Position numbers and translations under genes: made by a program. From the NCBI RefSeq assembly GCF_018143015.1, contig NC_054758.1, forward strand, positions 5,567,001 to 5,631,000: a DNA stretch of 64,000 nucleotides. The letters are read 5' to 3'. The DNA is from Lytechinus variegatus (Eukaryota > Echinodermata > Echinoidea > Temnopleuroida > Toxopneustidae). Below, piece after piece: positions 2,701 through 63,400 of the stretch. The notes under the pieces are model-generated. The model did not search any database and was not told where the DNA came from. It saw only the letters and a program-made list of their open reading frames with translations. Positions within the stretch are counted from its first letter, which is position 1. Every line of letters starts with the position of its first letter.

Positions 2701-2858
2701 GGGGTGGATGTGGTAGGACTCCAACAGATGAATATAATGAAGAATTATAGTGATGGATGGAAAACGAAGAGAAGGATGGAGGATTCAGAAGAAAATTAAA
2801 AGGTGAGACGGAGGAGGAAGAAGAGGAGGAGGAGAAAATACATCAGGGTCCCACTTCA

Positions 2859-12800: not shown

Positions 12801-15800
12801 GTTTCCCAATCTAGACCTATGCTCAATATCAGCCAGTCAAAGCCAGAGATTTGATGGAAATCGTCAGCTGATAATTTTTATTTACTGTTGACAATTTTAA
12901 AGAAACACCCCCAGATCATAATTTGAATCTTCATCCTGAATTAATTATTGGTGACATAACATTTACTCCTGCGACAGGTGTTATTTTGTCTAGATAATAG
13001 GGTTAGGGTTGCGATAGGGTTTTATGTTAGGATTAGGGTAACGAAGGTTTAGGATAGGGTATATAGTGTTAAAACCAGGATTCAAATTAGTCATCCATTA
13101 GTGTAATTTACAGCGGAGCAATTGTCTTGGAAACTAATTATTTGGTCTGAACAGGTTGCTCATTAACAATTTTGAATGCAACTCATTTTAAAATTGATAT
13201 TGGATCTCAAATGTAGTACAGTTCACTCTTCAGTCAAAAGAAAAAAAAATCATTGAAATCATCAGTGCTGGCAATTTTCATGAAATGCCTCCTTCAATTG
13301 AATCTTGATCCTATTTGGTGTGAACAGAGTACACATTTTGGTTTGCAATATATTTGAATGTAAGACATTTGAAAATTGATATTGGGTTTCTTATTACAGA
13401 GACTAATGTGGTGATGTCTTTTAAATCCTGATTGCTAAGAAAGCATGAATGCTTGTAAGCAAGCAACCATATGACCGACAGCTTAAGGTCCTCTCTGAGG
13501 GACCTGGTAATGAGGACAAATGCCTTACCACAGGACACTAGCGCACCAAGTGGGAATTGATCCTGGGTCGCCGGAATCCCCAAACCCCCCTCTACAACTG
13601 AGCTTTCCAGCCAATTAAAAAAATCGAAAGAAATGTTGATACCGAATTAATTATTTGATGTGAATAGGGTCTCATCATTCAGTGCCTGTATCTCATTACT
13701 AGAGTTGCTCCACACTACGATCTTCATCCAAACGAAAGACTACAGTACAGTGTAGATACCATGCATTGATTGGCTTTTTCATACTGGGAGGAAAGGGGGA
13801 CCCTAATCACTCGGCGAATGTATCTCATTATCAGCCTCATGCTAGCTGAGTTTACATACCATACCATGCCTAGCTACAGTGGGTGTGTTCACACGAGATG
13901 ATATTGTGTAATTAGAAACTTAACATGAATTTCTCTCTTTCTGTGTGTTTGTGGGTGATTGACCATTGATCGTTTCTTTTCGTTTTTACTGAGAGACTAA
14001 CGGGACCCCAATCACTCAGTGAATGTACCTCATTATCAGCCTCATCCTTGAGTTTACATACCATGCCAATGTAGCTACAGTGGGTGTTTTCACGCGAGAT
14101 GAAATTGTGTAATTAGAAACTTAGCATGAATTACTCTCTTTCTGTGTGTTTGTGTGTGTGATTGACCATTGATCATTTCTTTTCTTCATTTTTTTTACTG
14201 AGAGAGAAATGGGACCCCAATCACTCAGTGAACAAGGGTAGGAAATGTGTCATTAAAAATGAAAAATGAGGATTGTTATTTTGTTAATAAGGATTGTTAT
14301 TTTGTTATTTAATTGAATCTCTCTTTCTTTTTGTGTTTACACGTAATTGGCCATTGGTTGTTTCTTTTTCATACCGAGAGTAAACAGGGACCCCAGTCAC
14401 TCGATGATTGCATCTCATAATATGAGCCTCATGCCGTCAGAGTGGACATACCAAGTCTAGCTGTACTGAGCTCTTTCACACGAGATGAAATTGTTTCATT
14501 CAAAATGTAAAGCAGTGTGATAGTCATTACCCTCTGTACTGTGTGTATGTGTTTTGCCTCTACTTCTATTTTTTCCTCCATTTCTCTTGTCTCTGTTTTA
14601 CCCCCCCCCCATATTTTCAAATCAATACAGCATAGTGAGCATACTATCTAAAGTAGATTGGAAGATATTCACTTGCTACTACTAGTACTTTGGAGACTTA
14701 AAGGACAAGTCCACCCCAACAAAACTTGATTTGAATAAAAAGAGAAAAATTCAACAAGCATAACACTGAAAATTTCATCAAAATCAGATGTAAAATAAGA
14801 AAGTTATGGCATTTTAAAGTTTCGCTTATTTTCAACAAAATAGTTATATGAACGAGCCAGTTACATCCAAATGAGAGAGTTGATGACATCACTCACTCAC
14901 TATTTCTTTTGTATTTTATTATATGAAATATGAAATATTTTCATTTTCTCATCATTGTCATGTGAAATGAAGTTTCATTCCTCCCTGAACACGTGGAATT
15001 CCATTATTTTAACATTTTGTGATTCAGGCAATGAGGTCCTAATCATCAAATTCGTAAAAATTGAAATATTGTATAATTCAAACAATAAAAAACAAAAGAA
15101 ATAGTGAGTGAGTGACGTCATCGACTCTCTCATTTGGATGTAACTGGCTCGTTCATATAACTATTTTGTTGAAAATAAGCGAAACTTTGAAATGTCATAA
15201 CTTTCTTATTTTACATCCAATTTTGATGAAATTTTCAGCATTGTGCTTGTCTGATTTTTCTCTATTGATTTAAATCAACATTTTTCTGAGGTGGACTTGA
15301 CCTTTAATATCTCCATGAGATTTTTTGCACATGTACTTTTTGGCTACTAACCCAATTTGCTACTACGCTATGTAATAGCTCATATTGAACTTATGGAATT
15401 TTTTTTCAGGGGGACGTGCTCAACACTAGTAAAGACAGGCCTGAGTATAGAGAGCATTTTCCCTTTATAATTAGAATGACAAGAAAGACAATAGGTGAAT
15501 AGGCCATAGAAAATGGTACACAGTATGCTCTATTTGCCCCAATCAGTGGCATATAGATTAGGGGGTGCTTGGTGGCATTTGCCCCCCCCCCAAAAAAAAA
15601 AAAAAAAAATCCGACCAAGAATAATAGAAATAAAAGGAAAGAGACTAGAGTGAAGTATATTTTTTCTAAATATGTCAAAATATATCACAAATAAGAATTT
15701 TTATGATGAAAAAATACAATTTTTTTTCTAGCTTGCTTGCAACTTTTTATAAATTTTGCCTGATACGCCATATCTGGCCCCCTCAACATTTTTGGCTCAT

Positions 15801-19785: not shown

Positions 19786-20567
19786 AAGCAGAAAGCAGCA
19801 TTTATTTGTCTGAAGCATTCACAGGCATTCACGATCACGATGATATTGTTAATTAGGTTGTGTTTTCAGAAATTCATTCAGATGCATAGTGTGTACACAT
19901 ATACATATGTGTATGATATGAATGAGATAGTCGATTTTGATACAAATACTTCTCTCTAGAATGTTCAACTCAGTTTTTATGTGAATTCAATTAAATGACA
20001 TTCATGTTCTCTGATTCAAACATTTCAAAGTGGCTTTTCATTATACATGCATGTTCAATCAACCATGTCTTCTCTAAAAGTATTGATGACTATTGCTGCA
20101 TTAATGTTGACACATTTTGTACTAGTAAATGGTCACATTTGTAGATATGTATTTCATTTTTGTATGATGCATACATGTATGAAGAAAGGAAAAGCATCTT
20201 CCCGTACATATGCAACCACATATTTCTTGAATCTTGATTTGTATTTTGTGGTATTTATAGTTTGTCGAATCAGTACTGATCTTCCATTTGATACAGTACA
20301 CTTATCCAGGCTGAATATATGTCAATTTTTTTTTGTTTGCTTATCCCATTTCTTGCCTCCAAGTCCAGCTTGAGTTTTCTGGTCGAACAACGGATCAAAA
20401 TTGTTTCACAGTACATTAGTACAGTATACGTTTGTTAATTTGTAATTATGAAATGATCGTGTGGACAATCTGTTGGAACCTTATTGTTGTTATAAAATAT
20501 GATGAATACATAATTATCAAAGAAAGACATATAATTAAGCATTCATGTAGTTCAAAGTTAAAGTTTA
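19786..20567. other. Non-coding stretch, nothing recognised
   Basis: AT-rich; short frames without splice context. Confidence 0.5.
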
Positions 20568-21158
20568 CTAGTCCACCCCAACCAAAACTTGATTTGAATA
20601 AAAAGAGAAAAATTCAACAAGCATAACACTGAAAATTTCATCAAAATCGGATGTAAAATAAGAAAGTTATGGCATTTTAAAGTTTCGCTTCATTTCACAA
20701 AACAGTTAAATGCACATCTCGGTCGGTATGCAAATGAGGAACTGATGACATCACTCACTATTTCTTTTGTATTTTATTATATGAAATATGAAATATTCTT
20801 ATTTTCTCGTCATTGTCATGTGAAATGAAGTTTCATTCCTCCCTAAACGTGGAATTCCATTATTTTAACATTTTGTGCTTCAGGCAAGGAGGTCCTAATC
20901 GTCAAATTCGTAAAAATTGAAATATTGTATAATTCAAACAATAAAAAACAAAAGAAATAGTGAGTGACATCATCGACTCTCTCATTTGGATGTAACTGGC
21001 TCGTTCATATAACTATTTTGTTGAAAATAAGCGAAACTTTGAAATGTCATAACTTTCTTATTTTACATCCAATTTTGATGAAATTTTCAGCATTGTGCTT
21101 GTCTGATTTTTCTCTATTGATTCAAATCAACATTTTTCTGAGGTGGACTTGGCCTTTA
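20568..21158. mobile_element. Inverted-repeat element, family A, left end altered
   Basis: Starts inside the terminal repeat (GTCCACCCCAACC) and ends GGTGGACTTGGCCTTTAA. AAAGTTTACTA occurs immediately on both sides, either a target duplication or a chance change of the left end. Confidence 0.75.
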
Positions 21159-22305
21159 AAGTTTACTATTAAGCCTTCTAATGTCAAGATATAGCCTATG
21201 TAATTTTCCTTTCAATCATCAAATACAACTATATTGCTGTGATGTTTTTGCTCTTGTTTATAGTGAATAAATAATGATAAATATGAATTTTATGATAATA
21301 ATAATAATATAGGTGTATTTACCCAGGGTAGCCACTTAAGTTTTGAAAACTGTTCTACCAGCGGGCCCTGCTATTATTATTACCCCGGCTTTAGCTTTTG
21401 CACATTTATGAAAATGCCTGTACATGCACTGCATTGAACAGTTAAATTTCTCATATAATCAGGAAAAAAAACATTTAAAATATTGCATTGAAAGAATAAG
21501 AAAAATTATTTAACATTTGTACCGCTCCCCCTATTTTTTGTTATCTAAATACACGGGATTCCTAGCACTTGAATAGATTTTCAGTCATAATGTAATCATA
21601 CTTGATCAATTCATCTTTAACCCTTGGGTCGATTTAGGGGATGTTATTAGAGAATGATTTACAATCGATTGTTAGAGTATGATTGATTATCTGATCTAAG
21701 ATCGATCTACATTTAATTGTAAACTTCTTGCCACACCCCCATAATCTTTACATGTTGTTTAGCAAGTTAAAGGCAATATGGCTGTTATTGAAAAAATGCA
21801 TTTATAAAAAAAATTTCTGACAGGTTATTGAAAGCCCTTTTTAGTGATGTCTTCAAAATTAACAGAATCACATTATTTTTTGTAGGAATTTGAATATGTA
21901 ACAAAGATAGGGCAAATTGACTCAAATGCTAATTTTGGCTAAAGGAAGGGCAGTATAACTATAAATTGCACCTGTCATTATTGATTTTTGATAAATAATA
22001 TCTTATCCATTTTTTTTGCAAATGATTGTTTTATGCTTCATGATAGATGATGTATCAATGTAGACAATGGCTTGAAATTGGACAGTCAAAATATGGATTC
22101 AAAATGTGTCTTCAATTGTCTTCTATCAATGAATGTCAGTACTGTGATATTTAAATGTATGAACAGGGAATGTCTTCATAATTATGCACTTGTTTTCATT
22201 TCTGTGTCAGGAACATTCAATAATTAAAAGTACTCTTTCATGCAAATTGATATTAGCATTGGAGTTTGCCTACTTTGTACATATGGAATGGTGTGTGTTG
22301 ACTAT
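21159..22305. other. Non-coding stretch with SINE-tail scrap
   Basis: An (AAT)n run at 21295 and TTATTACCCCGGCTTTAGC near 21375 look like the reversed tail of the type 2 SINE. The rest is AT-rich and unrecognised. Confidence 0.45.
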
Positions 22306-29637: not shown

Positions 29638-30502
29638 CAAACTTCCATTTGCTACAGCAATACATGAAACCAGTATTTCTTCTGGAGATTCTTCTTCTTC
29701 AGCAGAGGCTCATTCAGAGAGTGAGACATCAGCCATCCTTGGCAGTTTCACTTCAAATTCGTATAGTTCTGCTGTGTCTTCTTCTGCTTACATGTCTACC
29801 TCTGCTTCACCTTCTGCTTCAACTTCTGCTGTGCCTTTTACTTCCTCTTCAAGTCCTGCTGTGATTTCTTCTACTAGGTCTATTTCGGCTGGCACTGAGC
29901 CAAGTTCTTCAAGAAGAGTGGTAACTACCTCGACAGAAACAGTTGGTGACTATTATAACTACTGTCGAGAAAATTGTGATTGGGTCATCACCAACAAATT
30001 GGACTGCATTCCCCCCTTTGGTGGACTTGGTCTGACTGTTGAGATCGACATATCAAAGTTTGGTAAACGCAAGTACCATCGAGGGCGTGCCGTTGAAGGG
30101 CAGTGGGTGTTTGGAGGCATCTGCAGAGAGACGAGGGACATTTTCTTGGTTCCTTTAAAAGATAACAAGAGGGACAGAACAACTCTTGAACCACTCACTT
30201 TACAGCACATCAAAGCTGGTAGTACCATAATCAGTGACTGCTGGAAGGCATACGACCAACTTGGACTTCAAGGATTTAATCATTCCACAGTCAACTATTC
30301 GTTACATTTCGTCGACCCGCAGACAAACGAACACACAAGGTCTATGGTGTGAGGTGAAGAGGCAGTTGAGCGAAATGTACGCAAGACAAGGAAATTGGCA
30401 TCTTCATCTGTTACAATATATGTGAAGGCAGCACAACCGAGACAAAGATTTTTTTGAAAAGTTTCTGAAGGATGCAGCAGAACTGTACAACCCCAACAAG
30501 TA
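29638..30502 (+). pseudogene. Merlin (ISXO2-like) transposase, copy 1, decayed
   Basis: After a Ser-rich lead (about 29650-29930), the ISXO2-like DDE core runs VEIDISKFGKRKYHRGRAVE, GQWVFGGICRETRDIFLVPL, HIKAGSTIISDCWKAYD, then FVDPQTNEHT. Merlin transposons are cut-and-paste DNA elements related to bacterial IS1016/IS1595. The first Asp (in EID) and the second (in SDCWKAYD) are present. After NEHT the frame is shifted and the segment with the catalytic Glu (NNIEG in copy 2) is deleted; the C-terminal part continues in another frame (VKRQLSEMYARQGNWHLHLL, KDFFEKFLKDAAELYNPNK). No terminal inverted repeats were recognised. Inactive. Confidence 0.75.
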
Positions 30503-30579: not shown

Positions 30580-31205
30580 TCCATGCTTCTGCTTCAACTT
30601 CTGCTGTATCTTCTATTTTTTCTTCAAGTCATGCTATGCCTTCTACTTATACTAGTTCTACTTCTGCTGGTTCTGAGCCAAGTTCTTCAAGAAGAGTGGT
30701 AACTACCTTGACAGAAACAGTCAGTGACTACTATAATTACTGTTGAGAAGTTTGTGAGTGGGTTATCACCAACAAATTGAACTGGAATCACCCCCATTGG
30801 TGGACCTGGTCTGACTGTTGAGATCGACGAATCGAAGTTTGGTAAACGCAAGTACCATCGAGGGCTTGTCGTTGAAGGGCAGTGGGTGTTTGGAGTCATC
30901 TGCAGAGACATTAGGGACATTTTCTTGGTTCCTTTAAAAGATAACAAGAGGGACAGAACAACTCTTAAACCACTCATTTTACAGCACATCAAATCTGGTA
31001 GCACCATAATCAGCGACTGCTGGAAGGCATACGATCAACTTGGACTTCAAGGATTTAATCATTTCACAGTCGACCATTCCTTATGTTTCGTCGACCCGCA
31101 AACGAACGAACACACAAACAACATTGAAGGCCTATCTATGGTGGCAGGTGAAGAACACAGGACGAGGAAATTGGCATCTTCACCTGGTGGAATATATGTG
31201 GAGGC
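30580..31205 (+). pseudogene. Merlin (ISXO2-like) transposase, copy 2, decayed
   Basis: Direct repeat of copy 1, starting in the Ser-rich lead (GCTTCTGCTTCAACTTCTGC). The core is better kept here: VEIDESKFGKRKYHRG, DIFLVPLKDNKRD, ISDCWKAYD and NEHTNNIEGL, so all three D, D, E residues can be found, but stops and frame changes separate the lead from the core (near 30745-30790) and a shift follows NNIEG. The copy stops at about 31205, where an unrelated GC-richer sequence begins. Only DNA-level similarity to copy 1 (about 90% by eye) shows how recent the duplication is. Confidence 0.75.
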
Positions 31206-31836
31206 AGGTTCTGGTGGAAGATGTCGGGGGTGCACCCGCATGCCCTGTTGGCCCGTTGGCTTGTGGAATGGGCTCAGTCACGACAACTGTTACACCCCAA
31301 CTTCCTGGTGAAAGCTGGGAAACTCCATTCCTTGGAGTTTTGTCTAGAACTGGCTGATAGCCAGTATATGCTGGCACGCGAAGCTGGCGACGCTATCTGG
31401 GTGGAGTGTCTCCAGGACAGGGACAGGGAACCAAATTGGCAGAAATGCGAGAAGAATTATTTAATTGAAGTAATAGCAGACAGGATCCACATAATCAATA
31501 ACAAGGCTACAAATCACACTACAAATTCAAGGAAAATCAATGCATGGAAAGAGATTTATCAACAATTTGTTAATAAGTATGGACAGAAGTGGAGTCTGAC
31601 TCAAATGAAAGAGCAGTGGAAGAGGTGCAGTGTCACTGCGAAAAAGGAGTATGGGGCATACACCAGGGTGACAAGAAAAACTGGGGGTGGGCCTCCACCA
31701 TAGGCCCCCTCCCAGATGACCTAGTTCATAAAGGACATTCGTCCCAATAATTTCATCCAATTGAACAATCGTTTTGATGACGACGCCGATCAGGACAACG
31801 ACGCAATATCGGCGTCGGAGTTTATCTAATTTTCTA
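31206..31836 (+). pseudogene. Myb/SANT-like gene, copy 1, joined to a GC-rich segment
   Basis: A frame at 31221-31703 has two parts. The first (about 70 residues: HALLARWLVEWAQSRQLLHP, ..., DAIWVECLQD) is GC-richer and unrecognised. The second, from PNWQKCEKNYLIEVIADR to WSLTQMKEQWKRC, is a Myb/SANT-like trihelix DNA-binding domain with its spaced Trp residues (W-K-E-I, W-S-L, Q-W-K-R-C), as found in Harbinger-type transposon partner proteins and in MSANTD host genes. After GGGPPP two in-frame stops interrupt a still recognisable tail that ends FDDDADQDND and SASEFI at TAA (about 31828). Confidence 0.6.
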
Positions 31837-45100: not shown

Positions 45101-48100
45101 AGTTCTCGTTTGATGAACGACACTTCTTCGCTGCATACACTGAAAGGGTTGTCAGCCAGGAACTGTTGAACAAACTTCACAACATGAAGGATCTGAATAT
45201 TTAGAGAAAGAAAGTATGAGATTTTATTAAACATTAAAAGTGTACATAATCATGTTTTCAAGAGTGATACACTCTTTAAGAAAGTCACTTAAAACTATGT
45301 TTGATATGAAGTTGCACTACAAATGCCCGAAATCCCTAAATTGATGCAGGCCTTAAATTTTTGCTATTTTTAGGGTAAGGCCGCTTTTCAAAAGGTCACA
45401 TGTATCAGAAATATTTATGAAGGGCAGAAACAATATCCAAGACCAATGAAAAGGGCACTGAGGCCAGTCAGCAGGGCATCCACTGCCATAGCCTTGGATC
45501 AATTTTAAAGAGAAATGCCAGTAGTTGCAGTAAACACTGATTTCATGAGAAAGTCTGTAAAACAAGGCTTAATTGTCAGTATATCATCGAGATCTAGATC
45601 TGGTACAGTTACATTAACTGAACTTTGTGAATCTTGAAATCTACGCTGAAAAATGTTCACACCGAAGATCCCTAACATAGATAAGTGCACGTGGGACAAT
45701 GTATAATTATTGCTTAGAGCGTCAGGCCCGACGCTCTACCCGAATCCTGTGCTTATTTGCTGATTTCTCAGCAATTACACAATTTCTTCCAAAATCCTTT
45801 GGCACATGCGTTTTATTTATACAAACAGACACTTTGTTGGTCATTTCATTGGATTCTGTATGAACTCATTTTGATATCATTACCAAAACTACATGTAGCA
45901 TTTACCTTTAAAACCTGTTATGTGCGGTATCCCTTGTGATATAAATACGGATAAGTATAAACATGCTTTGCATTGGACCGGTAGTCTCTTAATTTTGCAG
46001 GAGAAAATGGTGCTGGGACAAATTTCACAAGATGAAGGTGTTGAGCTTGCAGTTATCAATAATTTGTTTTGCATCATGTTTACAAACATAGGCCTACAGA
46101 ACAGGTTTGGAACTGGGAGAGGCAATCTGAATTGTACTTCCAACATCAAGCACAAACACCAAACTTTAAAACAACATATTCAACACAAACACCAGCACCA
46201 ACACTAAACTTGAAATCACCCTATGTCCTTTAGTTCTTACCTGAGGTTTTCCAAGGAGTTTCTTGGCTTGTTCATAACAGATCTTAGTCAAGTCCTCTCT
46301 CAGTTTGTTTGGAAGTTTCTTACTCTTTATCTTGGTGCTAACGAAGGCAATCTGAATTTTGTTTCAAACACCAACACCCACACTGAACTTGAAAACACCC
46401 AATGACCTTCAGTTCTTCCCTAATGTTTTCCAAGAAGACTCATGGTTTGGTCATCATAGATCTTAGTTAAGTTCTAAGTTTGTCTGAGAGTGACCTACAA
46501 TATCTTGGTGCTAACAAAGGGTCATTTTCAAACAAAAGTGGACATGGGGGTGAAAATTAAAACTTGCTAGAAATCATTAGGCTTCAATGTTTTTTGAAAC
46601 TAGACATCTTAAAGTATATTTTTCCATTTCATTTACATAAAATTATTAATTATTTCTTGAGATACAGTGAATTTTATGCAAGGGAAATTAAATGTTACAA
46701 AATGTTGATTTTTGCATTAAAATTCACATATTGCCTATCACAATATAAAATTTGTATTAGAAGCACATTTGTTGGCAAGATACAAGCTGTGTATTGTATC
46801 TAACTCCTAAATAGCAAAAAAAATTCTGTGAAGTGTTTTTCTGAAAAAAATTGGGTTTTGAAGTTTTCAAAACTGGTTGTCGTGTCACTCACGTTTTAAA
46901 TGCAAAAAGTTTTCTAGAGCTGTGTATTCTGAAAATTAATTTATCCCAGTACTGGAGCAAATACAGTTTATCTGTACCTTATTGTATATAAAGTAACTTG
47001 GTCCAATGTGTTAAGGTAAAGCTAAAATTAACTGTTAAAGTTGTGTCGTGTCACTCACAATGTCGTGTCACTCACGGTATTATATTGTGTATAAAAAAGG
47101 ACATCCAGTAATTTTTGAAGCGTTTTACCAGGGATACAGTCAAAATGTTGTTCCTGACATCATTTAGGCCTATTTTAGGCTAATAATTTCCTCCATCTTC
47201 CTAATTTTACTCCTTTTTATGGAAATATTGAATTTGACATTGAGTTCATCTATTTTCTCTCCTCTCCATGGTTGCCTTGGTTTAAAAAATCCTGACAATT
47301 TTCCATTGGTGTGAAGACTCGGATCCTAATTCATATTTTGGTGAATGTACTGTGATTAAGAATATAACAACATAATCAACACAAAATTATGAATGTATCA
47401 AGAAAAAAACGCTATACATGTACTTTAGCAATGGACATATTTACAATGCATAAAGGGTTGGTGATGGTGATGGTCCAAGTCATACCTAGGTATTACTCGA
47501 ATACTCTCTGTCTCCATTTACAGAAATGAGCAGAAAGTTCACCTTTCTTTTGAGCAATATGTTATTTCTTTGTTATACTCATAGCTAGAAAATTCAGGGA
47601 TCCTTTTTTGATATTTGCAGGAATTTAGTGGTAAAGTAGTGTGAGATATAAGAGATCACCATGAACACCAAACATTTTTTTCAAATTCGGAAAAAAAAAT
47701 TCTTTTCCTTCTGATTGATTAAATCAACCTTTTCATTTGCCATAAAACTTGTATTCCAGGACATGAAATAAACAAATTTGCAAGAAAACATAAACATTTC
47801 AGGTGAGAATGTACTGAGATTTGATGGAAAATTTTGGATATTACTTGAAGCAGCTACATGCCAAGTTCAAAATCATTATTTGTTCGGCAACCATTCATAC
47901 CGCTAGTGATTAACTACATGTAGGGTCTGAACAGCTAACTACCGTAAGCGGGCCGATGTGTGTTCAGAGCAGATTTGCATTTACACATATTCATTACAAC
48001 AAAATGATGCATGTTCATGTAGGTCCCAACAAGTCCCAACCGAGACCGCATTTTGATTTGAGCAACTTTGGATGGGTTGCCATGTACCAGTAAATCAATT

Positions 48101-50526
48101 TTTTTTGGGGGGGGGGTACCCTGATAAGAACAGAGCTGGACCTCGAGGGGAAAAAGCTATTGAGGTATAAAGGGAGCCTGGTTGGGATGCTGAATTGGAT
48201 TTTAGTGTGACATCCAAGGGCTTAGAAAAGGAAAGGCTAATGACTTGTAGTTGTTATGTAATAGTAGCAGACTGCAAGAATCAGGTACTGACTGCGTCTT
48301 TCACCTTGTGGCTTTCCCTGGATTCCTGTGGTACATGTATATGGTATATGATCAAATAATTAGCAATGAAAAGGCGCTTACAAGATTCCAGCTAAATTCA
48401 TAGCTCTGAATTTTGGTAGAGTGCCTTGGGAGGGTCCACATACAAGCAGTGTTCAGGAGAAAACCTATGCTTGTTGAGTTGAATTCCCAAGTTTCTCAAG
48501 GATTTGCTGATAGTCCATCTGAAGTGTGCAGCAATGTGATTGTGGTTTGGTACCAAAAAAGACATTGAAACTGCCATGTCCTATTTGGACAATGCCTAAA
48601 ATATTAAAGGAGGATAATATTGTAATCCAATATTTCAAGAAAAAGGAGTCATACATGTACATGACATCATTGGCTACCAGACCATGCCAGATGATGTGAG
48701 TGACTATTGAGAATACCTTTCTTACAAGGAAAAATTATTCCATCCGTTGTGGATGCTGAATTGTATAAGCCTGTAAACTTTCATATACAAATAGGGAGAA
48801 AGAGTTAAAGTTTTGAATGATATCAGGCCACAAAAAGAATGTTTGAGTTGATGTCAATGCCAAGACCTCATAACACCTCCTTCAAGTGCCCCCTCCTCCT
48901 CTAAAGAGGAGAGTGGTAGAAGCCCTAGTGTGACAATGGTATGGTATAGGGAATGTGAGTTGATGGGCAAATATGACCATAAACCAAGAATAAAACATCA
49001 GGATGACATATTATGAACTTTAAAGAAAGCAGTTATTATGTAATTAAGCTTGTTTTTTGGTTAATGGTATTTTTCTCTTCTACATCATGCAAAAAATACT
49101 TTGAATGTTGAGATAAATGTTGTATTTTTGCACTTGTCGTGTCACTCACGTTTTGGATGTCGTGTCACTCACGGTATATAGGAGGGTACCATTTTCCATA
49201 GAGAAGGTTTGATTGATTTTGACTATATGTGTTGGATAGGTACACTATTTATGTCCATTTACTGGTACTCACAGTACTCCATGACAACTACTTGGGCACG
49301 AATCCAACCATATGTGTTAGTGGTCAGAAACCCATGTCCAAAATTTGTCGTGTCACTCACGCACCGTTTTTTAATCATATCTACTAAACGAATTGTTGAA
49401 TTCAAATCAAACTCGTAGTGGCCCATGCCAGTCCTATATTGTATATAATATAGTAGTCATGATTGATTCATAACCTTTAAGTTTGAAGATATGAGCCCTT
49501 AAACCTCTCCGATTGTCGTGTCACTCACGTTTGAAAATGACCAAAGGCAATCTTAATTGTGCTTCTAACACCAACACCAGTTTAACACTGAACTTGAAAT
49601 CACCTTAAGTCTTTCAGTTCTTACCTGAGGTTTTCCAAGGAGAGTCTTGGCTTGTTCATCACAGATCTTAGTCAAGCCTTCCCTAAGTTTGTCTGGAATT
49701 GTCTTACTCTTTATCTCAATTATTATTGCTTCATCAGGATACTTCCCTTGAAACTGCATGCAAACTTCCAACTTCTTGTATTTTGTTCTCCTATATCCAA
49801 GAAAAAAAAACAATTGGTTACTCATATTTATCAACTATTTCTTACATTGTTCAAACATCTGTATAAAGGAACTGGTTTCACTTTCCTTCTTCACATACAA
49901 AAATATACCCCCAAAAAGGTGTACATTTCAAATAATGACAGAGTGTGTGATGGCATCATTTGCATATTACATATTCTGTGCATAAATCTGTTGAATTAGT
50001 ATGAAATGTATAACATTCTTGTTGTATATTTGATTTGATGAAATTTGAAGATACATGCTTGTTTGATTTTTTTTACTTTTATTCAATTCAATTGACAGTG
50101 GATTTGACATAAATCAGATTATTCATAAAGATTAATCAAGATTCACAGGATGTATAATCTTCTTTTGCTCCTAAATGGGCAAATTCCTGAATTTTCTTTT
50201 TACTATGGAAATAATAAACATATGAACGTGTGTAGAAAAAAACGATAATATGCATTTTTAAAGTGATTAAATTGAAAGTAACAGATAATGGCTATCACTT
50301 GTATCAAAATTAATGATAAAAGGAGACAGTGATTTTGTTGCATTGCCAATTTGAAGTGTATAATGATTGGCTCAAGTTTAACAGCTTATCATTCAGGAAC
50401 GTACACGATCCTTATCCTGACGGCAGCAGGATGGCAAGCTACAATCTCGGACCCAGGAACTTCATCAACACATCGTTTTCTAACGTCCTCCAATTCCTTA
50501 TTGATGAAATCCATGTTGGAAAGCAT
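36152..50526 (-). CDS. RWD-RWD-RING-H2 protein, probable E3 ubiquitin ligase, seven exons
   Basis: Coding exons (minus): 50405-50526, 49625-49790, 44972-45192, 43309-43419, 39118-39244, 37621-37729, 36152-36291. All join in frame with GT-AG sites (phases 2, 0, 2, 2, 0, 1) into 996 bases, 331 residues plus stop. Residues about 6-96 fit an RWD fold (INKELEDVRKRC, YKKLEVCMQFQGKYPDEAII); 100-195 look like a second (IREAEYFMKFRLKVPDLYPE). A complete RING-H2 follows: C236-x2-C239, C266-x-H268-x2-H271-x2-C274, C290-x2-C293 (SICPICRERA, VYCGHIFHKGC, KKCPSCGKRI). The tail is charged and helical, ending EVVDFLQ. RING-H2 fingers bind E2 enzymes and RWD folds bind partners, as in RNF25 and FANCL, but the sequence matches neither by eye, so I give no name. 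The start is uncertain: the first exon has an acceptor upstream (50543), so a 5' UTR or extra coding exon probably exists; Met 50514 is an alternative. Confidence 0.85.
36292..37620 (-). other. Intron 6 of the RWD-RING gene
   Basis: AT-rich; 36640-36800 carries a scrap related to 37920-38050 (GATATGAAATTCTTATAC) and 36905-36945 a family E-like end (CCTGCGACAATTCCTCC). No gene inside. Confidence 0.5.
37790..38114. mobile_element. Family A element, internally deleted
   Basis: Both ends present (TTAATGGACAAGTCCACCCC and GGTGGACTTGACCTTTAA) but only about 325 bp long. Intronic, 60 bases upstream (minus sense) of the 37621-37729 exon. Confidence 0.8.
38132..38310 (+). mobile_element. tRNA-Glu-like SINE (type 2), truncated tail
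   Basis: Head TCTAGTGGTTCTGACTC with anticodon-loop-like CTTTCAA and B box GGTTCGATTCC, body CTGCACTCAACCCAGGTGAGG and GGGTACCCAGCAGGATTAAT. Ends early compared with the copy at 22407. Confidence 0.8.
38551..39097. mobile_element. Inverted-repeat element, family B
   Basis: Left TTTAAAGGGGGAAGTTCACCC and right GGGTGGAATTCCCCTTTAA are inverted; no coding capacity. It ends only about 20 bases from the donor of the 39118-39244 exon. Confidence 0.75.
39355..39490 (-). mobile_element. SINE (type 2), 3' part, reversed
   Basis: Reverse copy of the SINE body: ATTACCCCGGCTAAGC, CAGTACCCATTTACCTCACC, GGGTCGAAC. The tRNA head is missing. Confidence 0.6.
39975..43043. mobile_element. hAT-type element with GGCCTTG subterminal arrays
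   Basis: Ends CAGTGTTGTAGTGCC and, inverted, CAGTGTTGTAGTCAAGGC; flanked by a perfect 8-bp direct repeat GCTAAAAT (39967-39974 and 43044-43051), as expected for hAT insertion. Just inside both ends are dense runs of GGCCTTG/GCCTTGG words (39995-40100 and 42885-43030), plausible transposase binding arrays. No transposase frame is visible, so it is non-autonomous. It carries a second hAT-like element (40415-41655), a SINE tail scrap (40709-40790) and further GCTCGCGCTTTGCGCTCGC words (42085-42220). It sits in intron 4 of the RWD-RING gene. Confidence 0.85.
40415..41655. mobile_element. hAT-like non-autonomous element nested in the 39975-43043 element
   Basis: Starts CAGTGGCGTAACTACAGGGG and ends CCACGGTACGCCACTG; flanked by a perfect 8-bp duplication ATTATAGT (40407-40414, 41656-41663). 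Length 1241 bp. Inside are spaced copies of GCTCGCGCTTCGCGCTCGC (about 41044, 41156, 41467, 41579). Same family as 5002-6274. No transposase. Confidence 0.9.
43484..43829. mobile_element. Foldback element with arms of about 80 bp
   Basis: Left arm CTGATGTGGTTTACGGTACACC onward is matched inverted by the right arm ending GGTGTACCGTAAGCCACATCAG. The centre includes GTCCGAAACGTCGAG at about 43580. Lies in intron 3 of the RWD-RING gene, 65 bases from an exon. Confidence 0.8.
44136..44348 (-). mobile_element. Family E element with CCCTAA-like interior
   Basis: Starts GGTTCCACAACATTAGCTCC and ends TGTGTCACCC, with an interior of CCCTAAA/CCTAAC-like words (44213-44285). Reverse relative of 12951-13140. 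Confidence 0.7.
44421..44955. mobile_element. TIR element with GCCCGGGGGGGCCACTTAC ends
   Basis: Left GCCCGGGGGGGCCACTTACA and right AAGTGGGCCCCCCGGGC are inverted; inward GAGTGGATACCATGCGCGACC pairs with GGTCGCGCATGGTATCCACTC. The interior has a perfect 18-bp palindrome ACGTTACGTACGTAACGT (about 44507). T6 on both sides may be the target duplication. Ends 17 bases before the donor of the 44972-45192 exon. Confidence 0.8.
45505..45912 (+). mobile_element. Family D element
   Basis: Starts TTAAAGAGAAATGCCAGTAG and ends CTACATGTAGCATTTACCTTTAA, an imperfect terminal inverted repeat. Copies at 25066-25410 (reversed) and 63686 to the window end. Confidence 0.75.
46241..46331 (-). pseudogene. Duplicate of RWD-RING exon 2, 3' part (copy 1)
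   Basis: Copy of the exon at 49625-49790, about 88% alike at DNA level over 90 bases. Translated in the same frame it reads KIKSKKLPNKLREDLTKIC then YEQAKKLLGKPQ against the exon's DKLREGLTKIC and DEQAKTLLGKPQ. The donor is intact (CAG|GTAAG at 46240), but the exon's 5' part and its acceptor are absent, so it should not splice in. Confidence 0.75.
46421..46505 (-). pseudogene. Duplicate of RWD-RING exon 2, 3' part (copy 2, donor lost)
   Basis: Second, more diverged copy next to copy 1. The donor GTAAG is changed to GGAAG (positions 46416-46420). Both copies end in TATCTTGGTGCTAAC, showing that they are units of one tandem duplication of exon end plus flanking intron. Confidence 0.7.
46521..49541. 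mobile_element. 3.02-kb TIR element with seven GTCGTGTCACTCACG repeats
   Basis: Perfect 13-bp terminal inverted repeats GTCATTTTCAAAC / GTTTGAAAATGAC, flanked by a perfect 6-bp duplication CAAAGG (46515-46520 and 49542-49547). Removing it restores the tandem unit sequence GCTAACAAAGGCAATCT, seen uninterrupted as GCTAACGAAGGCAATCT at 46345. The 15-mer occurs at 46879, 47045 (last base A), 47062, 49136, 49159, 49347 and 49515, all in the same direction, four of them in the last 400 bases. No transposase is recognised inside. A 6-bp duplication does not fit hAT (8), Tc1 (TA) or piggyBac (TTAA); superfamily unknown. Intronic in the RWD-RING gene. Confidence 0.85.
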
Positions 50527-54480: not shown

Positions 54481-57400
54481 ATGGGAAGAAAGGTGGTTTT
54501 AGCTACCTGTACACTCAACCAGTGGGCTATGGACTTTGAAGGCAACTATGAGCGAATTTTAAAAAGTAAGCCTGTTTGATTTTTGTCTCGTTTCAATTTT
54601 GATGCATGTTCTAATTTGCACCTCTATTTCTTCTCTCTCTATCAATTGCAGCTAGCTAGTGCATTGCGCTCCGCTGAGTTCCCCACCCCCGGCCCCCCGG
54701 GCTCCCGGGGCCGAGCTCGGTGTCGTGATAGAGCTTCAAAGTTTTAGCCGGTGTCAGTTCGGCGCCAGTGCAGTTTCACATCCTGTCGCAAATATTCTCA
54801 TTTTTGTCTCACCTGCGAAGCAAAGCGAGACTATAGGCGCCGCTTTTCCGACGGCGGCGGCGGCGTCAACATCAAATCTTAACCTGAGGTTAAGTTTTTG
54901 AAATGACATAACTTATTTATATGGACCTAGTTCATGAAACTTGGCCATAAGGTTAATCAAGTATTACTGAACATCCTATTAGAGTTTCATGTCACATGAC
55001 CAAGGTCAAAGGTCATTTTGGGTCAATGAACTTAGACCATGTTGGAGGAATCAACATCGAAATCTTAACCTGAGGTTAAGTTTTTGAAATGTCATCATAA
55101 CTTACAAAATATATGGACCTAGTTCATGAAACTTGCATGACTTGGACATAAGGTTAATCAAGTATCACTGAACATCCTGCATGAGTTTCACGTCACATGA
55201 CCAAGGTCAAAGGTCATTTAGGGTCAATGAACTTTGTCTGAATTGGGGATATCTGTTGAATTCCCATCATAACTTTGAAAGTTTATGGATCTGATTCATG
55301 AAACTTGGACATAATAGTAATCAAGCATCACTGAAAATTTTGTGCAAGTTTCAGGTCTCATGATTAAGGTCAAAGGTCATTTAGGGTCAATGAACTTTGG
55401 CCGAATGGGGGGTATCTGTTGAATTACCATCATAATTTTGAAAGTTTATTGGTCTAGTTCATTAAACTTGGACATTAGAGTAATCAAGTATCACTGAACA
55501 TCCTGTGCACGTTTCAGGTCACATGACCAAGGTCAAAGGTCAATGAACTTTGGCCGAATTGGGTGTATCTGTTGAATTACCATCATAACTTTGAAAGTTT
55601 ATGGATCTGATTCATGAAACTTGTACATAAGAGTAATCAAGTATCACTGAACATCCTGTTCGAGTTTCAGGTGACATGATCAAGGTCAAAGGTCATGTAA
55701 GGTCAATGAACTTTGGCCATGTTGGGGTTTTTTGTTGAATAACCATCATATCTCTGTAAGTTTATTGGTCTTGTTCATAAAAAGTGGACATAAGAGTAAC
55801 CATGTATCACTGAACATCTTGTGCGAGTTAGAGAAGTATTCAAAGTCAGCACTGCTGCTACATTGAACCGCGTGATGCAGGTGAGATGGCCAGAGGCATT
55901 CCACTTGTTTTCTATATATAGTCACTATCAGCTCAAAAGGAAGAAGATAGTTTTTTATTGATGATGCCGATGGTGATATATCAAACTCAAAGATGAGCAT
56001 GATGATGAGAACTGATATTAGACCTAACAACATGATGAATGACAATATTTGATTTGAATTGTCTGCCTTAGCCGTACGGCGTAGGATCGGGATATTTGGA
56101 TAGTTCATAGTTGTTAGTTACTATTTTTTTACCATGTGTCTTGCTCGTTCATGTTGACAAATATCTTTACAATGTAAGATGATGAATGGTGAAGGCTGAA
56201 GTAGGTGATAGAGTATGTAAATTAGTATTAAGGCGGAAGAAGAAGTCGATGGTGGTGATGATGAAGATGATATTGATAATAATACAGGTGCTTTATGACC
56301 AATGATGACGGAGGTGATGATGATGAGGATGATGATGATGATGGTGATGATGATGAGGATGATGATGCATCATGCATGCATCTCGGCCTCGGTGATATCT
56401 GCTTAATGATGATGAGTGAATGATTGTGAATTAATGATGGATCAATGATGATGATTGTGTTGATAATGATGAAGATGTGGATGTTAATGATCATAGACAT
56501 AGGATATGAAGGACATTTCCCAAGAAACTGTTTATTGCTTATGTTTACTTTAAGGCATTATTTGTACGCCAGTTAAACTGTAGTCAAAAATAAGATCTAA
56601 GAGTAATGTTTGATCAGTGCAAGTGTTAGAAATTGGACAAAGCTACTGCTGATGATGATGAGGTGATACATTATCTTGGTGATATCTGCTTTGTCTTTGA
56701 GTGAATGATTGGGAAATTGATGAATTAATGATTGTGTTGATTGATGATGATAGTAATGATGTTAATGATGTATGGACACTGCAAGTTATATAGGATGTTT
56801 CCTAAGAAAATGTTCAGTGCTTTATGTTTCTTAAATAAGGCATAATTTTAAGCCAGGTAAAATGCAGTTAAGACTGCAAATAAGACTCTAGAATGATGTT
56901 TGACCAGTGCAAGTGTTAGATATCGGACAAAGCTCGGAATTAAAAAGAAATTGATACAACTGGTATAATTAAATCTGAGCGTAAGTCCCAATCCCTAAAA
57001 GCGTTTGTTGAAACTGTACTAAATTACTTTTTGAGTCTTAAAGTTGAGAAAGACATTGTCTGTTTTTACATAATTTCTTTCTATGAGACTCTAGAGCAAA
57101 TGCTTTTGATATACAGCTAGAATGTAATTGTAAGATCCTTAATTTTGTACATAGCTGACATTCAAGCAAAATTTGGTCATAAATGTCTGAAACATGTAAA
57201 ATACAAACATTGAATGGGTATCATGAGGCGAGACTTGCCGCTTTTGGGGTGATTTGTAAAAAAGTTGTAAAACACTGCTGATCGAACACGTACTTTGGAT
57301 ATCCTCTTGATAGTGTTGTTGAAAGAGAGCTTGAAAATATTCCATCTCTTTTTTTCAGTCTTAAAAGAGAGAAGAGAAGGTAATTACATTTGTAATAGAC

Positions 57401-60400
57401 CATTTCCTTGTAAACTTAGAATGACTCAGCTCTTTGAAAAAGAAGGAAAAAATGTCCTATTATTTTTCTTTTGTTCCTGCACACTATATACATTACATCA
57501 TTGCTGTTGGCTTGCAGCTAAAAACCCAACTGAGAAATTAGCTGCCTTTTGCACCAATTTTGTAATTGAATTATAGGAGGATGTTAATTAAGTGTGTTGC
57601 ATCAAGCGGGCAGTAGAGTAATGCTGCCTGCCAGTGGTGCTCAATATATTCAGTGAACCCTAAATTAGTACTTCCAGGTTAAAGGTAAACTCAAGTAGTC
57701 ACATCAAACAATCAGAAAATCTTTTTTTCAGTTGTCACCATATATCATCTTTGATGCAGATCACATGACAAGAATACATGTACCATACTTATTTTGCTTT
57801 TTTTTCTCAGTTGTATGTATTTTTACAGTAATTTGGCACATACATTTGAATGTTTATTTTATTGGCTACTCACACCATTTAAAGACCTATCTACATTCAT
57901 ATCGACCATCACAATCTACATTGGTCATGCAACTTTTCCTGTCCTAGACTAGTCTGCTGTGCAAACCTCTCACTGAGGTTAAAGGGTCTAAATGTGCAGC
58001 CTACAATAACTTTTGTTCTGAAGACCCTTTGCTTTGTCCTAGTCTTGCATGAAGACCCACTTGTTGATCAAAGTTTCAATCAGGGTCTGTGCCTGCAGAC
58101 TAGTCCTAGGCCCTGCCTTACAAAGAGTTGCAAGATCCAAATAAACTATTTGTGATTGATCTAGATTGGTATGGCAGGGCTCCACACTAACCCATTTTTT
58201 CTACTGGTCCAACCTGTTCATGTCGGACCAGTAGATACCCAGTTTTTCAAATTTTTACTGGTCCGAACCTAAAATCTACTGGTCCCAAAAAGTAAAGAAA
58301 ACATTAAAAAAAGGCGCAAGTTTATTTTTCTAGCCTTTCGTGACCCCCCCCCCCCCCCGTAAAACGAAGGAATGAAGGACAAAAAGAAAGCAATACAGAA
58401 ACGAAGAGAGTAAGAAAGAAGGAAGGAAGGAAAGTCAGAAAGAAAGAAAGGATGGAAGGAAAGAAGGAAGGAAAGAAGTAAGGAAAGAAGGAAGGAAAGA
58501 AGGAAGGAAAGTAAGAAAGAAAGGATGGAAGGAAGGAAGGAAAGTAAGAAAGAAAGGATGGAAGGAAGGAAGGAGGGAGGAAGGAAGGGAGGAAAGAAGG
58601 GAGGAAAGAAGGAAGGAAAGAAGGAAGGAAAGTAAGAAAGGATGGAAGGAAAGAAGGAAGGAAAGGAGGAAGGAAGGAAGGAAGGAAGGAAGGAAAGAAG
58701 GAAGGAAGGAAAGAAAGAAGGAAGGAAAGAAGGAAGGAAAGTCAGAAAGAAAGGATGGAAGGAAGGAAGAAAAGAAGGAAGAAAGGATGGAAGGAAGGAA
58801 AGAAGGAAGGAAGGAAAGTAAGAAAGAAAGAAAGGATGGAAGGAAGGAAGGAGGGAGGAAGGAAGGGAGGAAAGAAGGGAGGAAAGAAGGAAGGAAAGTA
58901 AGAAAGAAAGGATGGAAAGAAGGAAGGAAAGAAGGAAGGAAAGAAGGGAGGAAAGGAGGAAGGAAGGAAGGAAAGAAGGAAGGAAAGAAGGAAGGAAGGA
59001 AAGAAGGAAGGAAAGTAAGAAAGAAAGAAAGGATGGAAGGAAGGAAGGAGGAAGGAAGGGAGGAAAGAAGGGAGGAAAGTAAGAAAGGATGGAAGGAAAG
59101 AAGGAAAGAAAGAAGGAAGGAAAGGAGGAAGGAAGGAAGGAAAGAAGGAAGGAAAGAAGGAAGGAAGGAAAGAAGGAAGGAAAGAAGGAAAGAAGGAAGG
59201 AAGGAAAGAAGGAAAGAAGGAAGGAAGGAAAGAAATAGAGAAAAAAAATTAAAAGAAAGATTGAAAAGAAAGAAGGAAAGAAAACAGGAAGAAAACAGAG
59301 GAAGAAAGCTAAAACTATTTTCATAAATAATTTATGTTTCTTTTTTGGCTCAATAAAAATAGCTATGAAAGAAAGTCAGAAACCAAGTGTATCAACACAC
59401 ACATAAATGCATATGTGGGGCTAATATGTATTCAGACGATACCACCCGAGACCCGATCTGTTTGAACCAAACAGAAGTGAAAATTTACCCTTTTACTGCT
59501 TACAGATGACAGAGTTACTCCAATTTTTAGGAAATATGGACATTATAAGAGCCTTTCAGGAGTATGAACCGTGAATTTTGACAGTTCTGTGAGAGATTTC
59601 TGCCAGAGTTTAGCCAGGCTTTGTTCGTGCGGCCAGTGGAGAATTCACCGTGTGGATTGTGTGGCTGACTACATGTACACTGTATGCATGCTGTATAGTA
59701 CTCTAGTAACACGTGCGATTCATTCTGTGTGTATTCTGTGTGTGAATTGCAGAATTTAACGGGGGAAATGGTTTGCTGTGAATTTGACCATTTCTGGAAA
59801 AGTTATTGGCCCAACAATGGTTTTTATTACTGGTCATGTCGGACCCTTAAATCTTGCTATTTTTGGAAAAATTACTGGCCCGACAATGATATTTTTTACT
59901 GGTCATGTCGGACCAGTAAATCTTCCAATTTCTGAAAATCTACTGGCCCAACAGCGATTTTTACCGGTCTGGGACCGTCGGACCGCCGCTACCCTATTGA
60001 CTCGCCCATTCATTGGATTTTTGGTGCTCTTTTCTATTTTCCCATTTTTCGCTGTAATAATAATGTTACAAATGTGCCCTACAATCATGTAGCCTCCCTC
60101 TGGAAGTATCAAAACTAAGGCCTGGCATTAGTCGTTAGATATCAAAGGACAACTCCACCGTAACAAAGAGTTAATTTCATTTTGAATAAAAGGAGAAAAA
60201 TCCAACTTGCATAACAATGAAAATTCCATCAAAATCGGATACTTGTAAATTAAGAAAGTTATGGCATTTAAAGTTTTGCTTAATTTCACAAAACAATATG
60301 CACATCCTGGTTTGTATGCAAATGAGCAGACAGATGACATCACCCACTCACTATTTATTTTGTATTTATCATATGAAATATTAAAATTCTATTTTTTTCT

Positions 60401-63400
60401 ACATTCTCATGTGAAACAAAATGTTATTCCTCCCTGAACATGTGGAATTATCATTATTTCAAGAGTTCATTGTTAAGTAAAGTTGGTAGTTGGTACTTAT
60501 TGTCAAATCTGTAAAAATTGAAATATTGTATAATTCAAACAATAAATGAGTGAGGGACATCATCGACTCTCTCATTTGCATGTCACTGAGTTGTGCATAC
60601 ATTTCAACTGTTTTGTGAAAATTAAGCGAAACTTTGAAATGTCATAACTTTCTTATTTTACATCCGATTTTGATGAAATTTTCAGTGTTATGCTTGTTTG
60701 ATTTTTCTCTTTTGATTCAAATCAACAATTTTCTGGGGTGGACTTGACCTTTAAGTTTGATGTCTTTGTTTCAAATTCTGATATGATGCCTTTGTTGTTT
60801 ATTTTGTTGTAGGTATAGCCATAGCCAAGGAAAAGGGAGCCAGATACAGATTAGGACCCGAACTCGAAATCACGTAAGTGTCATTTACTAAAATATGTAA
60901 TGTGCAAACACAGGTCTGTGCAATGTACATGTACAATCATCAAAATTAGGGACTGAAATATTATCAGTTCCTGAGTGAGTTATGTCAGTTATTTTGTAAA
61001 CCAAGTTGAACCATCTTACTGTGCTCAATTTTCAGTTCTGTGTTTGAAGGAAAAATCTCTGACAACTTTTTGAAAATGCTTAGCAGCATTCCTGTAGGGC
61101 TTCCGCAGCATCTTGTGATAGATACATGTTGGAATTATTCATCACTAGCTTTATGTAGTCAGCTGATGAAGCAAAGATTTTTATCTCTTCTCAAGTCTAA
61201 AAACAACATACAGCAACCAGATATTCAAGGACTGCGCTGACTACTTTCCTCCAAAAATATTTTCTATCAATGATATTAGCAATTAAAAAGCCCATGTTTG
61301 AGGAAAAGTTTGACAGGCAGGATATCCTGCAAAACCGTTTATTACAATTTACAGTGATGGTAATGTTAACAAATGTCAGTACAAGTTTCTGTAATGTTTG
61401 ACATGAGAAGCACAATATGCATATTTTTGATGGTCTTTAAACCTAATACTAAGCTCTCCATTTTCTCTAATTCTCTGTTATTTTTTCATTGATATATTGT
61501 TTAATGTATAATGGTAAAAATTGTTAAATATCATCTTTTAACCATCACTGCCAACACCACACTCGTCATCAACATCTCCAATCATCTTGAAACTTAAGTG
61601 AAAATTTTCCAAAAAATAGAGTATTAAGTTGCTTGCTAGTGTTGTGATTTTTTTAATTACTATTTTTTATTTTTAACAGAGGTTATGGGTGCAATGATCA
61701 TTTCTATGAATCTGACACCAACCTGCACTCATGGCAGATCTTGGCCAAGCTTCTTGAAGCACCGGAGACACAGGATATCATATGCGATGTGGGAATGTAA
61801 GTATATGTAGTAGAGGACTAGAGACACAGATGAGTTCTGCATTTCGACTTCCCATAACTCTAAGGCCGTGTTTATGCTTCCACTTTTCAGGCCAGAATCA
61901 GCGTTTCCATAAAACATGGTTGCGTCCATGCTTACATTCAATTAAACGACGTTTCAAAACACTGATCGTAAACTCACAAAAAGGTGCGTTTTTAAACGTT
62001 GTTTGACTAGAATCAGGTTTTCTGGGGAAGTATAAACAGAACCACGATAGTAAACATGTTTAAATGACGTCATTTGGTACATGTCAGGTGAGATGAAAAT
62101 CTGTTGGCAAATACAGTCGCATTGCTCCATGGTTGCATGTTACCTCCACGGAATTACCTCTCATCTCCCTTGTTTTGCATGTGTAGTAGTACTATTACTA
62201 GTATTACTCTTCCAATTTGTCATCACGATGAACGTTGAGGGATTTACAAAAAACCTGGAAAATGAGTTATAATAAGGAGACATCGCCAGATGCCCCATTA
62301 GCCTAAACAAATATGCTACTGGGGCATGTTTTATTATTTTATTATGTATATTCTAATATTTATTTTTTTCACTGCTATCCTCACCATGGTAGAAATTACA
62401 TGGCTATGTAAAATAGCTCCATGCAGTGACTAAAATATCGGCTTTTTTCCAATTGTATATTATTTGTACATATAGATCAGGGGAAAAGCCCCTTCGCTCT
62501 ACAGAATGAGTTTTAGGGTTCAATTCCCAATGTTGCAGCATTGTTATCCTTTCATTCATTAATGTACTTTATTAAAATCTCGTGCAGGTTCTTAACTTTT
62601 GCTTTTGTCTTTTTTTGTGTGTTTGTTACAGGCCAGTAATGCACAAGAATGTCCGCTACAATTGCCGAGTTATCTTCCTTAACAAGTAAGACTTCATTCC
62701 TGATTTCCTGCCCCTTTCTTGGTAGACTATATACCTATAAACCCAAATTGGATTTTCCCATTTTTCCCACCACAAACATGATGGTCAGCAATAGATGTTG
62801 ACAAATCTTTTGTGATATACAGGTCAGCTCAATCCTGTGCACATGCTAAACAAAGGAAAATGATAGAATTATTAAAATACTTCCCTCTTTTGCAAAAAAT
62901 GGAGCCATGAAAAATATGGAGCCATGAAAAATAACAGACTTATGAAATGTTGTTCTCTATGCTGTAAAGTGATACCATTATATTAAAATGGTTACTTCAG
63001 AATTCATTGTCTTCATTATCTTGACTGAAACGCTCTCATTTCATTGGTATCCTATAAAGGGGAAAATCTCCCTGGAGTCGAATAGGTTGTTATTAAAGCA
63101 GGAAGGTATTATTAGATGTACTTATGTGTGATGTGCAAGGCTGATGTTAGCCTTGAGGAGTACTACAATATTATAAATGTTTTTCCAAAATTATTCGAAT
63201 AGTTTTTCTTTGTTGTTGAATATTTGTAGCTTCATCAATTAACTCTTTGCCCGCCACGGACGACTTGCGGCACATACAGCGGACTGCCAACGACGACTCA
63301 AGTCACAGTTCGCACACAATGCATACTGCACCCCAAAATTAATGTGGCGCAGGGGGGATAGTGTACGTGGCAGGCAAAGAGCTGCATCAAGAGCTTCTTT

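Follow-up and report, generated by a model that had tools for sequence, protein, structure and literature searches.

The genome of Lytechinus variegatus contains a stretch of about 3 kb that is bordered by short inverted repeats and carries several copies of a short word in a single orientation. This raises the questions of where the stretch ends, whether it is a mobile element and, if so, of which kind, and what the repeated words are for. In the following, the window denotes the whole stretch of DNA that was analysed, with a length of 64,000 nucleotides.

The element in the window and its empty site

The element, its flanks and its words are located in the window as follows, with the boundaries that result from the comparison of 39 copies described below.

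46520..49542, plus strand: whole non-autonomous element; longest open frame at most 89 codons
46520..46533, plus strand: left terminal inverted repeat (TIR), 14 bp, GGTCATTTTCAAAC; outer G in 39/39 copies
49529..49542, minus strand: right TIR, 14 bp (GTTTGAAAATGACC on the plus strand); outer C in 38/39 copies
46516..46519, no strand: 4-bp target duplication AAAG, left copy
49543..49546, no strand: 4-bp target duplication AAAG, right copy
46328..46500, no strand: uninterrupted insertion-site paralogue; partial RWD-domain exon copies on the minus strand
46879..46893, plus strand: 15-mer word, left cluster (consensus position 360)
47045..47059, plus strand: 15-mer word, left cluster, final G to A (consensus 526, same variant there)
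47062..47076, plus strand: 15-mer word, left cluster; a single word in place of two in the consensus (543, 562)
49136..49150, plus strand: 15-mer word, right cluster (consensus 2643)
49159..49173, plus strand: 15-mer word, right cluster (consensus 2666)
49347..49361, plus strand: 15-mer word, right cluster (consensus 2854)
49515..49529, plus strand: 15-mer word adjoining the right TIR (consensus 3022)

The perfect 13-bp terminal inverted repeats of the original prediction are present and pair at 13/13 positions (46521-46533 versus 49529-49541), and a CAAAGG pair flanks them at 46515-46520 and 49542-49547. Perfect 13-bp inverted pairs alone occurred at a mean of 13.8 per shuffled window and say little by themselves. 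Their combination with an exact 6-bp flanking repeat was seen 0 times in 60 shuffles and three times in the real, repeat-rich window. An uninterrupted version of the insertion site had also been proposed to lie close by. This agrees with a paralogue 173 bp to the left, to which the joined flanks are identical at 252 of 309 aligned bases, without a gap at the junction. Pfam searches with the six frames of the window copy gave no match up to an E-value of 10, and no RNA family at gathering score was found within the window.

The seven co-oriented words could be recovered as six exact 15-mers and one with a single mismatch (47045), all on the plus strand. Shuffled windows contained on average 0.51 words with up to three mismatches, 0/100 reached seven, and no further match within three mismatches was detected in the whole window. 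The rightmost word (49515..49529) adjoins the right TIR, as had been described. The proposed clustering of the words towards the right end did not hold, as the window copy has three words near its left end and four near its right end. The diverged inverse of the word that had been suggested for the left end is at background level, with 16% of random 20-base segments scoring equally well. The window element has 34 CpG sites, 13 of which are inside words.

The surroundings of the element consist in part of other repeats. Three partial minus-strand copies of an RWD-domain exon lie at 46182-46520 and 49544-49834, and the element is inserted between the second and the third of them. Only the third has a Pfam match, and a splice donor was recognised by eye. 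A palindromic repeat of about 610 bp with long inverted arms is located at 14691-15315, 20558-21159, 2858-3470 and 60141-60755 and, in part, at 8999-9408. Its copies are about 80-93% alike by direct alignment, several have a GATGACATCACTCAC-like middle, and part of the repeat was also seen by eye in a further locus (L206). An open frame is present in two copies that are 84% alike (29811-30431 and 30586-31207), which we take to resemble an ISXO2/Merlin-type transposase.

A young family of non-autonomous elements

The exact 13-mer end occurs at 513 places in the genome (869.6 Mb, 33 contigs) compared to 44 for a reversed control. Among the first 100 of the 513 places listed there are 40 convergent pairs, most of them about 3.0 kb apart, so that the two ends do recur together elsewhere. 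All 40 pairs were retrieved, namely 38 loci (L118-L155) and two longer ones (L156/L158 and L157/L159). L157/L159 is an end pair without family sequence and was dropped, while L156/L158 belongs to the family but contains a nested insert; its flanks show by eye a 4-bp ATAT pair, and it was excluded from the flank table. The table thus comprises the 38 retrieved copies and the window copy. Two of these 39 copies, L139 and L140, share their flanks and probably represent one insertion that was duplicated with its surroundings, which would leave 38 insertions. The enrichment of the ends and the 39-copy table bear out the proposal of a DNA-transposon family.

A family consensus of 3,048 bp was derived from 26 full-length copies of 2.95-3.07 kb. 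It contains eight co-oriented words, four near each end (360, 526, 543 and 562; 2643, 2666, 2854 and 3022), and the middle between the two arrays is free of words. Word cores numbered eight in 22 of the 39 copies, seven in 13 and four to six in the remaining 4. The longest open frame of the consensus comprises 93 codons, and the copies differ from the consensus by 0.9-2.3%, with L118 as an outlier (4.9%). Because of this low divergence and the lack of a longer frame, the family is young and, among the copies read, non-autonomous. Inverted ends, a target duplication, multiple copies, an empty site and the absence of a transposase gene characterise it as a non-autonomous DNA transposon of the TIR order.

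Target duplication, true ends and superfamily

The original prediction regarded CAAAGG as a 6-bp target duplication. The base to the left of GTCATTTTCAAAC is G in 39/39 copies and the base to the right of GTTTGAAAATGAC is C in 38/39, whereas the corresponding positions on the far side vary (right +6: G in 19, A in 16, T in 3 and C in 1; left -6: C in 27, T in 9 and G in 3). Since G and C are constant next to the 13-mer but not at the far positions, they are the element's own bases, and consequently the TIR is 14 bp long (GGTCATTTTCAAAC) and the target duplication is 4 bp and ANNT-like. Perfect 4-bp duplications are found in 29/39 copies and perfect 6-bp duplications in 9/39, and the 6-bp sequence therefore does not stand as the target site of the family, although the flanking CAAAGG pair itself exists. 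The 6-bp reading was derived from a single copy, and the agreement of the two outer bases of its CAAAGG pair is coincidental. In the left copy of the duplication, the first base is A in 34/39 and the last base is T in 28/39 cases, with a middle that is frequently, though not always, A/T. C or T is preferred before and G or A after the four duplicated bases, so that the target is roughly (C/T) A(A/T)NT (G/A).

It is very improbable that the duplication is a true 6-bp one and that a superfamily with 6-bp duplications, such as IS3EU/GingerRoot, Dada or hAT6, includes the family. The perfect CAAAGG pair of the window copy and the perfect 6-bp pairs in nine copies would fit such an assignment, but the predominance of perfect inner 4-bp pairs and the outer bases that are fixed towards the element and variable beyond it speak against it. 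So do the superfamilies themselves. IS3EU/GingerRoot elements, which duplicate 6 bp and end in TA..TA (or TG..CA) according to an excerpt of PMC10045372, are ruled out by the GG..CC termini and the 4-bp duplication found here. Dada elements are characterised, in an excerpt of PMC3706591, as lacking TIRs and inserting into small RNA genes with 6-7-bp duplications; here TIRs are present and no RNA family reaches the gathering score in the window. The 4-bp duplications of the 39-copy table likewise rule out hAT6, with its 6-bp duplications. The mostly 5'-CA..TG-3' termini of the CACTA/Chapaev/Transib (CMCT) group do not agree with GG..CC. PiggyBac elements generate 4-bp duplications of the sequence TTAA, while ANNT was found here. 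Their termini are 5'-CC..GG-3' according to an excerpt of PMC10045372 and thus differ from GG..CC as well.

The elements are most likely a Sola2-like non-autonomous family, with membership in Sola2 unproven. Sola2 elements are described, in an excerpt of PMC3627910, as having short TIRs, of 12-13 bp in Dictyostelium fasciculatum, and 4-bp duplications that are AT-rich (AWWT). The TIR of 14 bp and the AT-rich, ANNT-like 4-bp duplications, perfect in 29/39 copies, resemble these features. The present family differs in being without a transposase, and the likeness is drawn from descriptions of TIRs and duplications only. No use of the words or ends as transposon sequence was found in the papers searched, with Repbase outside the search, and the family may already be catalogued there. 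A 12-letter part of these sequences occurs in two Fusarium papers.

The words are protected from change

Outside the TIRs, which had been selected as perfect, we counted mismatches of the copies to the consensus. At non-CpG positions, 2/2,292 (0.09%) were mismatched in the words compared to 1,150/73,350 (1.57%) elsewhere, and at CpG positions the counts were 24/740 in the words and 134/1,234 elsewhere. Singletons were analysed without the outlier L118 and the duplicate L140. Here, the words had 1/2,124 non-CpG singletons versus about 0.76%, and 0/20,000 random sets of eight 15-bp blocks were as low; singletons in this sample of 24 may be common to unsampled copies, and selection after insertion is therefore not demonstrated by the test. 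The exact 16-mer TGTCGTGTCACTCACG occurs 1,236 times in the genome and its reversed control 0 times. In the base contexts tested, the word core is preceded by another base at only 3 places in the genome, and at 0 places by CT. In a subfamily represented by L119, the sequence outside words and TIRs is 86.9% identical (MAFFT) compared to 96.7% for the six alignable words; the main BLAST piece of this copy has 80.5% identity.

This strong protection suggests that the words are probably transposase-binding sites, which is consistent with the role originally proposed for them. The pattern of conservation is what would be expected of sites that are needed for movement. Subterminal repeats of hAT Ac/Ds and CACTA elements are bound by transposase, and their words occur in both orientations, whereas the words described here are co-oriented. 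Moreover, hAT duplications are 8 bp and CACTA duplications 2-3 bp long, with other termini, in comparison to 4 bp and GG..CC in the present family. Non-autonomous copies with short subterminal repeats, described in an excerpt of PMC3260210, are a trait that these elements have in common with the present family.

Search for an autonomous partner

None of the copies and loci examined is an autonomous partner carrying these ends and words. A longer, transposase-encoding relative, for which a search had been suggested, did not emerge. The long copies examined (L119, L120, L130, L131, L134, L141, L152 and L156) consist of the 3-kb element and unrelated inserts nested in it. Long TIR pairs were rejected as autonomous copies for this reason, and a truncated copy (C1:11370481) was rejected as a partner because it contains a nested insert. 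One search for ends that lead into foreign sequence gave no result. A second one gave 20 matches; of the 13 that were inspected, eight belonged to one unrelated repeat, two were ends of the family (L198 and L202) and three were unrelated single stretches. A THAP-like relic seen by eye at 48171-48570 had no Pfam match, whether it was searched piecewise, as a joined reading or in six frames, and a THAP-domain transposase, the membership feature of P elements and THAP transposons, was not found in the element. Phages and plasmids contained no family-like DNA, and viral and prokaryote contigs contained no exact patterns of ends and double words. The 14-mer matched 109 stretches in IMG/VR, with one match each in the 80 listed, which is chance level by our own arithmetic.

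The nested inserts contain repeats of their own. A 3-kb repeat with inverted ends that starts with GAGCATGATCGGTTAAGGG, or nearly so, lies at L131:1767-4769 and L130:2594-5609 (reverse strand) and also in L156. Compared with the L156 copy, its main pieces are 97.7% (L131) and 92-93% (L130) identical. A 163-bp tandem array at 54797-55910 of the window has relatives whose best pieces are about 92-94% alike. As these relatives lie in inserts nested within L141, L152 and L156, the array probably travels within a mobile element.

Family X and a relative with a long open frame

A second family, here termed family X, was found in the insert of L156 and is represented by the loci L161-L189, including L168 from about position 277. 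Its ends are GGGCCTGTTTCAAAATTG. Perfect 4-bp duplications flank all three copies for which both junctions are available (L165, L173 and L174), and the copy in L156 has ATTG versus ACTG by eye, a match of 3/4. Within L168, an open frame of 671 codons runs off the locus, and other readings give 877-879 codons. Several copies have internal deletions. Searches of Pfam, NCBIfam and PDB with the encoded protein gave no convincing match, and phage records and viral contigs gave no match. We infer that it is a transposase because the element in which it lies has TIRs and shows 4-bp duplications.

Family X and the present family have in common GG...TTTCAAA ends, 4-bp duplications and co-oriented words at similar distances from the right end. 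They differ in that family X has another word (TTCCGTCCGACATG, unrelated to TGTCGTGTCACTCACG), extra words, some inverted words and a long open frame. Oriented by this frame, the X words have their edges at distances of 26, 191, 383, 402, 562 and 581 bp (right end) and 181, 365, 536 and 556 bp (left end, taken from L168 alone). The corresponding distances in the present family are 14, 182, 370 and 393 bp on the right and 361, 527, 544 and 563 bp on the left. All 8 present-family words lie at most 13 bp from an X word (p about 5e-5, both orientations allowed) and 6/8 within 9 bp at a tighter tolerance (p 0.001), in a test that was post hoc, as the likeness was seen first and the tolerance chosen afterwards. 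With family X in reversed orientation, a first run gave p-values of 0.14-0.23. The X words at 181 bp on the left and at 562 and 581 bp on the right are without counterpart. The similarity of the end DNA of the two families was not above that of shuffled sequence, and no X-like transposase relic was found within the present element.

Relatives of the X protein in the genome are 23-34% identical to it over longer alignments, with pieces of about 60 residues reaching up to 53%. One of them, at C4:26467921, was read in three pieces and has an uninterrupted 711-codon frame with 33% identity over residues 215-437 of the X query. Upstream of this frame, about 80 bp from the place predicted from family X, lies the TIR-like GGTCATTCTCAAAA, which differs from GGTCATTTTCAAAC in two letters. 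By our own arithmetic, the chance of meeting a 14-mer with up to two mismatches in a piece of this kind is 0.2-1%, and this figure has to be multiplied by three because three places were tried. The three pieces read contain five co-oriented words of the form TTAACNTCC(G/A)TAAC(G/A), at 392 and 581 bp from the start and three further on; the first two are not within 13 bp of the left words of the present family. One piece each was read for two other relatives, C7 and C13, without a TIR or an exact word being found, and the C13 piece has one match with three mismatches, inside a copy of the palindromic repeat of about 610 bp.

How the family may move

We consider it highly probable that these elements are a non-autonomous cut-and-paste family on which a foreign transposase acts, binding the words, cutting at the TIR and producing a 4-bp stagger. 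The transposase would be provided in trans by another element and would bind the 16-bp word TGTCGTGTCACTCACG in the two subterminal arrays. The ends would then be brought together, cut at the 14-bp TIR GGTCATTTTCAAAC and inserted with a 4-bp stagger at (C/T) ANNT (G/A)-like targets. A transposase of the lineage of family X and C4:26467921, perhaps Sola2, most likely mobilises the family; this lineage, like the word binding and the cut-and-paste mechanism, we infer, whereas the ends, the 4-bp duplications, the empty site, the existence of the family, its lack of a gene and the protection of its words are directly shown. Some features run counter to this scheme. Transposase sites are usually inverted between the two ends, whereas the words have the same orientation at both, and the left TIR has no adjoining word. 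Furthermore, protection of the words in inserted copies requires that most divergence arose before insertion, yet 10/39 copies have imperfect 4-bp duplications.

The equal orientation of the words at both ends would also suit sites for a host protein, such as a transcription factor, an insulator or a silencer, which might be exploited by the element or used by the host. The distance between some words and an end, which reaches about 560 bp, and the depletion of even singletons in inserted copies point in the same direction. We nevertheless think this unlikely, as the last word adjoins the right TIR and the arrays lie on either side of a word-free middle. Furthermore, family X has a different word at similar distances and the C4 element another co-oriented word. 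A transposase and its word changing together fit these differences among the three better than a single host factor. A reading of the words as satellite or tandem-repeat units unconnected with the ends can practically be dismissed, since, despite several copies with a short spacing of 17-23 bp, word positions are stereotyped in the tabulated copies, the word is hardly met in the other base contexts tested, and the first 100 of the 1,236 word places listed are grouped as in family copies.

Returning to binding by a transposase, it may be speculated that its lineage keeps a conserved spacing ruler, in which the geometry of the ends is inherited and the recognition word is replaced. We regard this as a tentative idea with the odds against it. 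It is based on two families, in which the right distances of 14, 182, 370 and 393 bp would correspond to 26, 191, 383 and 402 bp in family X, and the left distances of 361 and 527 bp to 365 and 536 bp. With spacings near 165-171 and 184-192 bp, the end complex might be wrapped or of nucleosome size. The C4 element shares co-orientation and one spacing of 189 bp but not the distances; the ruler may have drifted there, and we have lowered its odds because of this misfit. The kind of element described here is known, and any surprise would lie in a spacing ruler that holds across unrelated words.

Starting from one suspicious stretch, a family with corrected ends and a corrected target duplication has been defined. 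With 1,236 exact words in one genome, it constitutes a clean natural data set for studying the recognition of arrayed subterminal sites by a transposase. Should the ruler prove real, the replacement of recognition words under a constant end geometry would become open to study.
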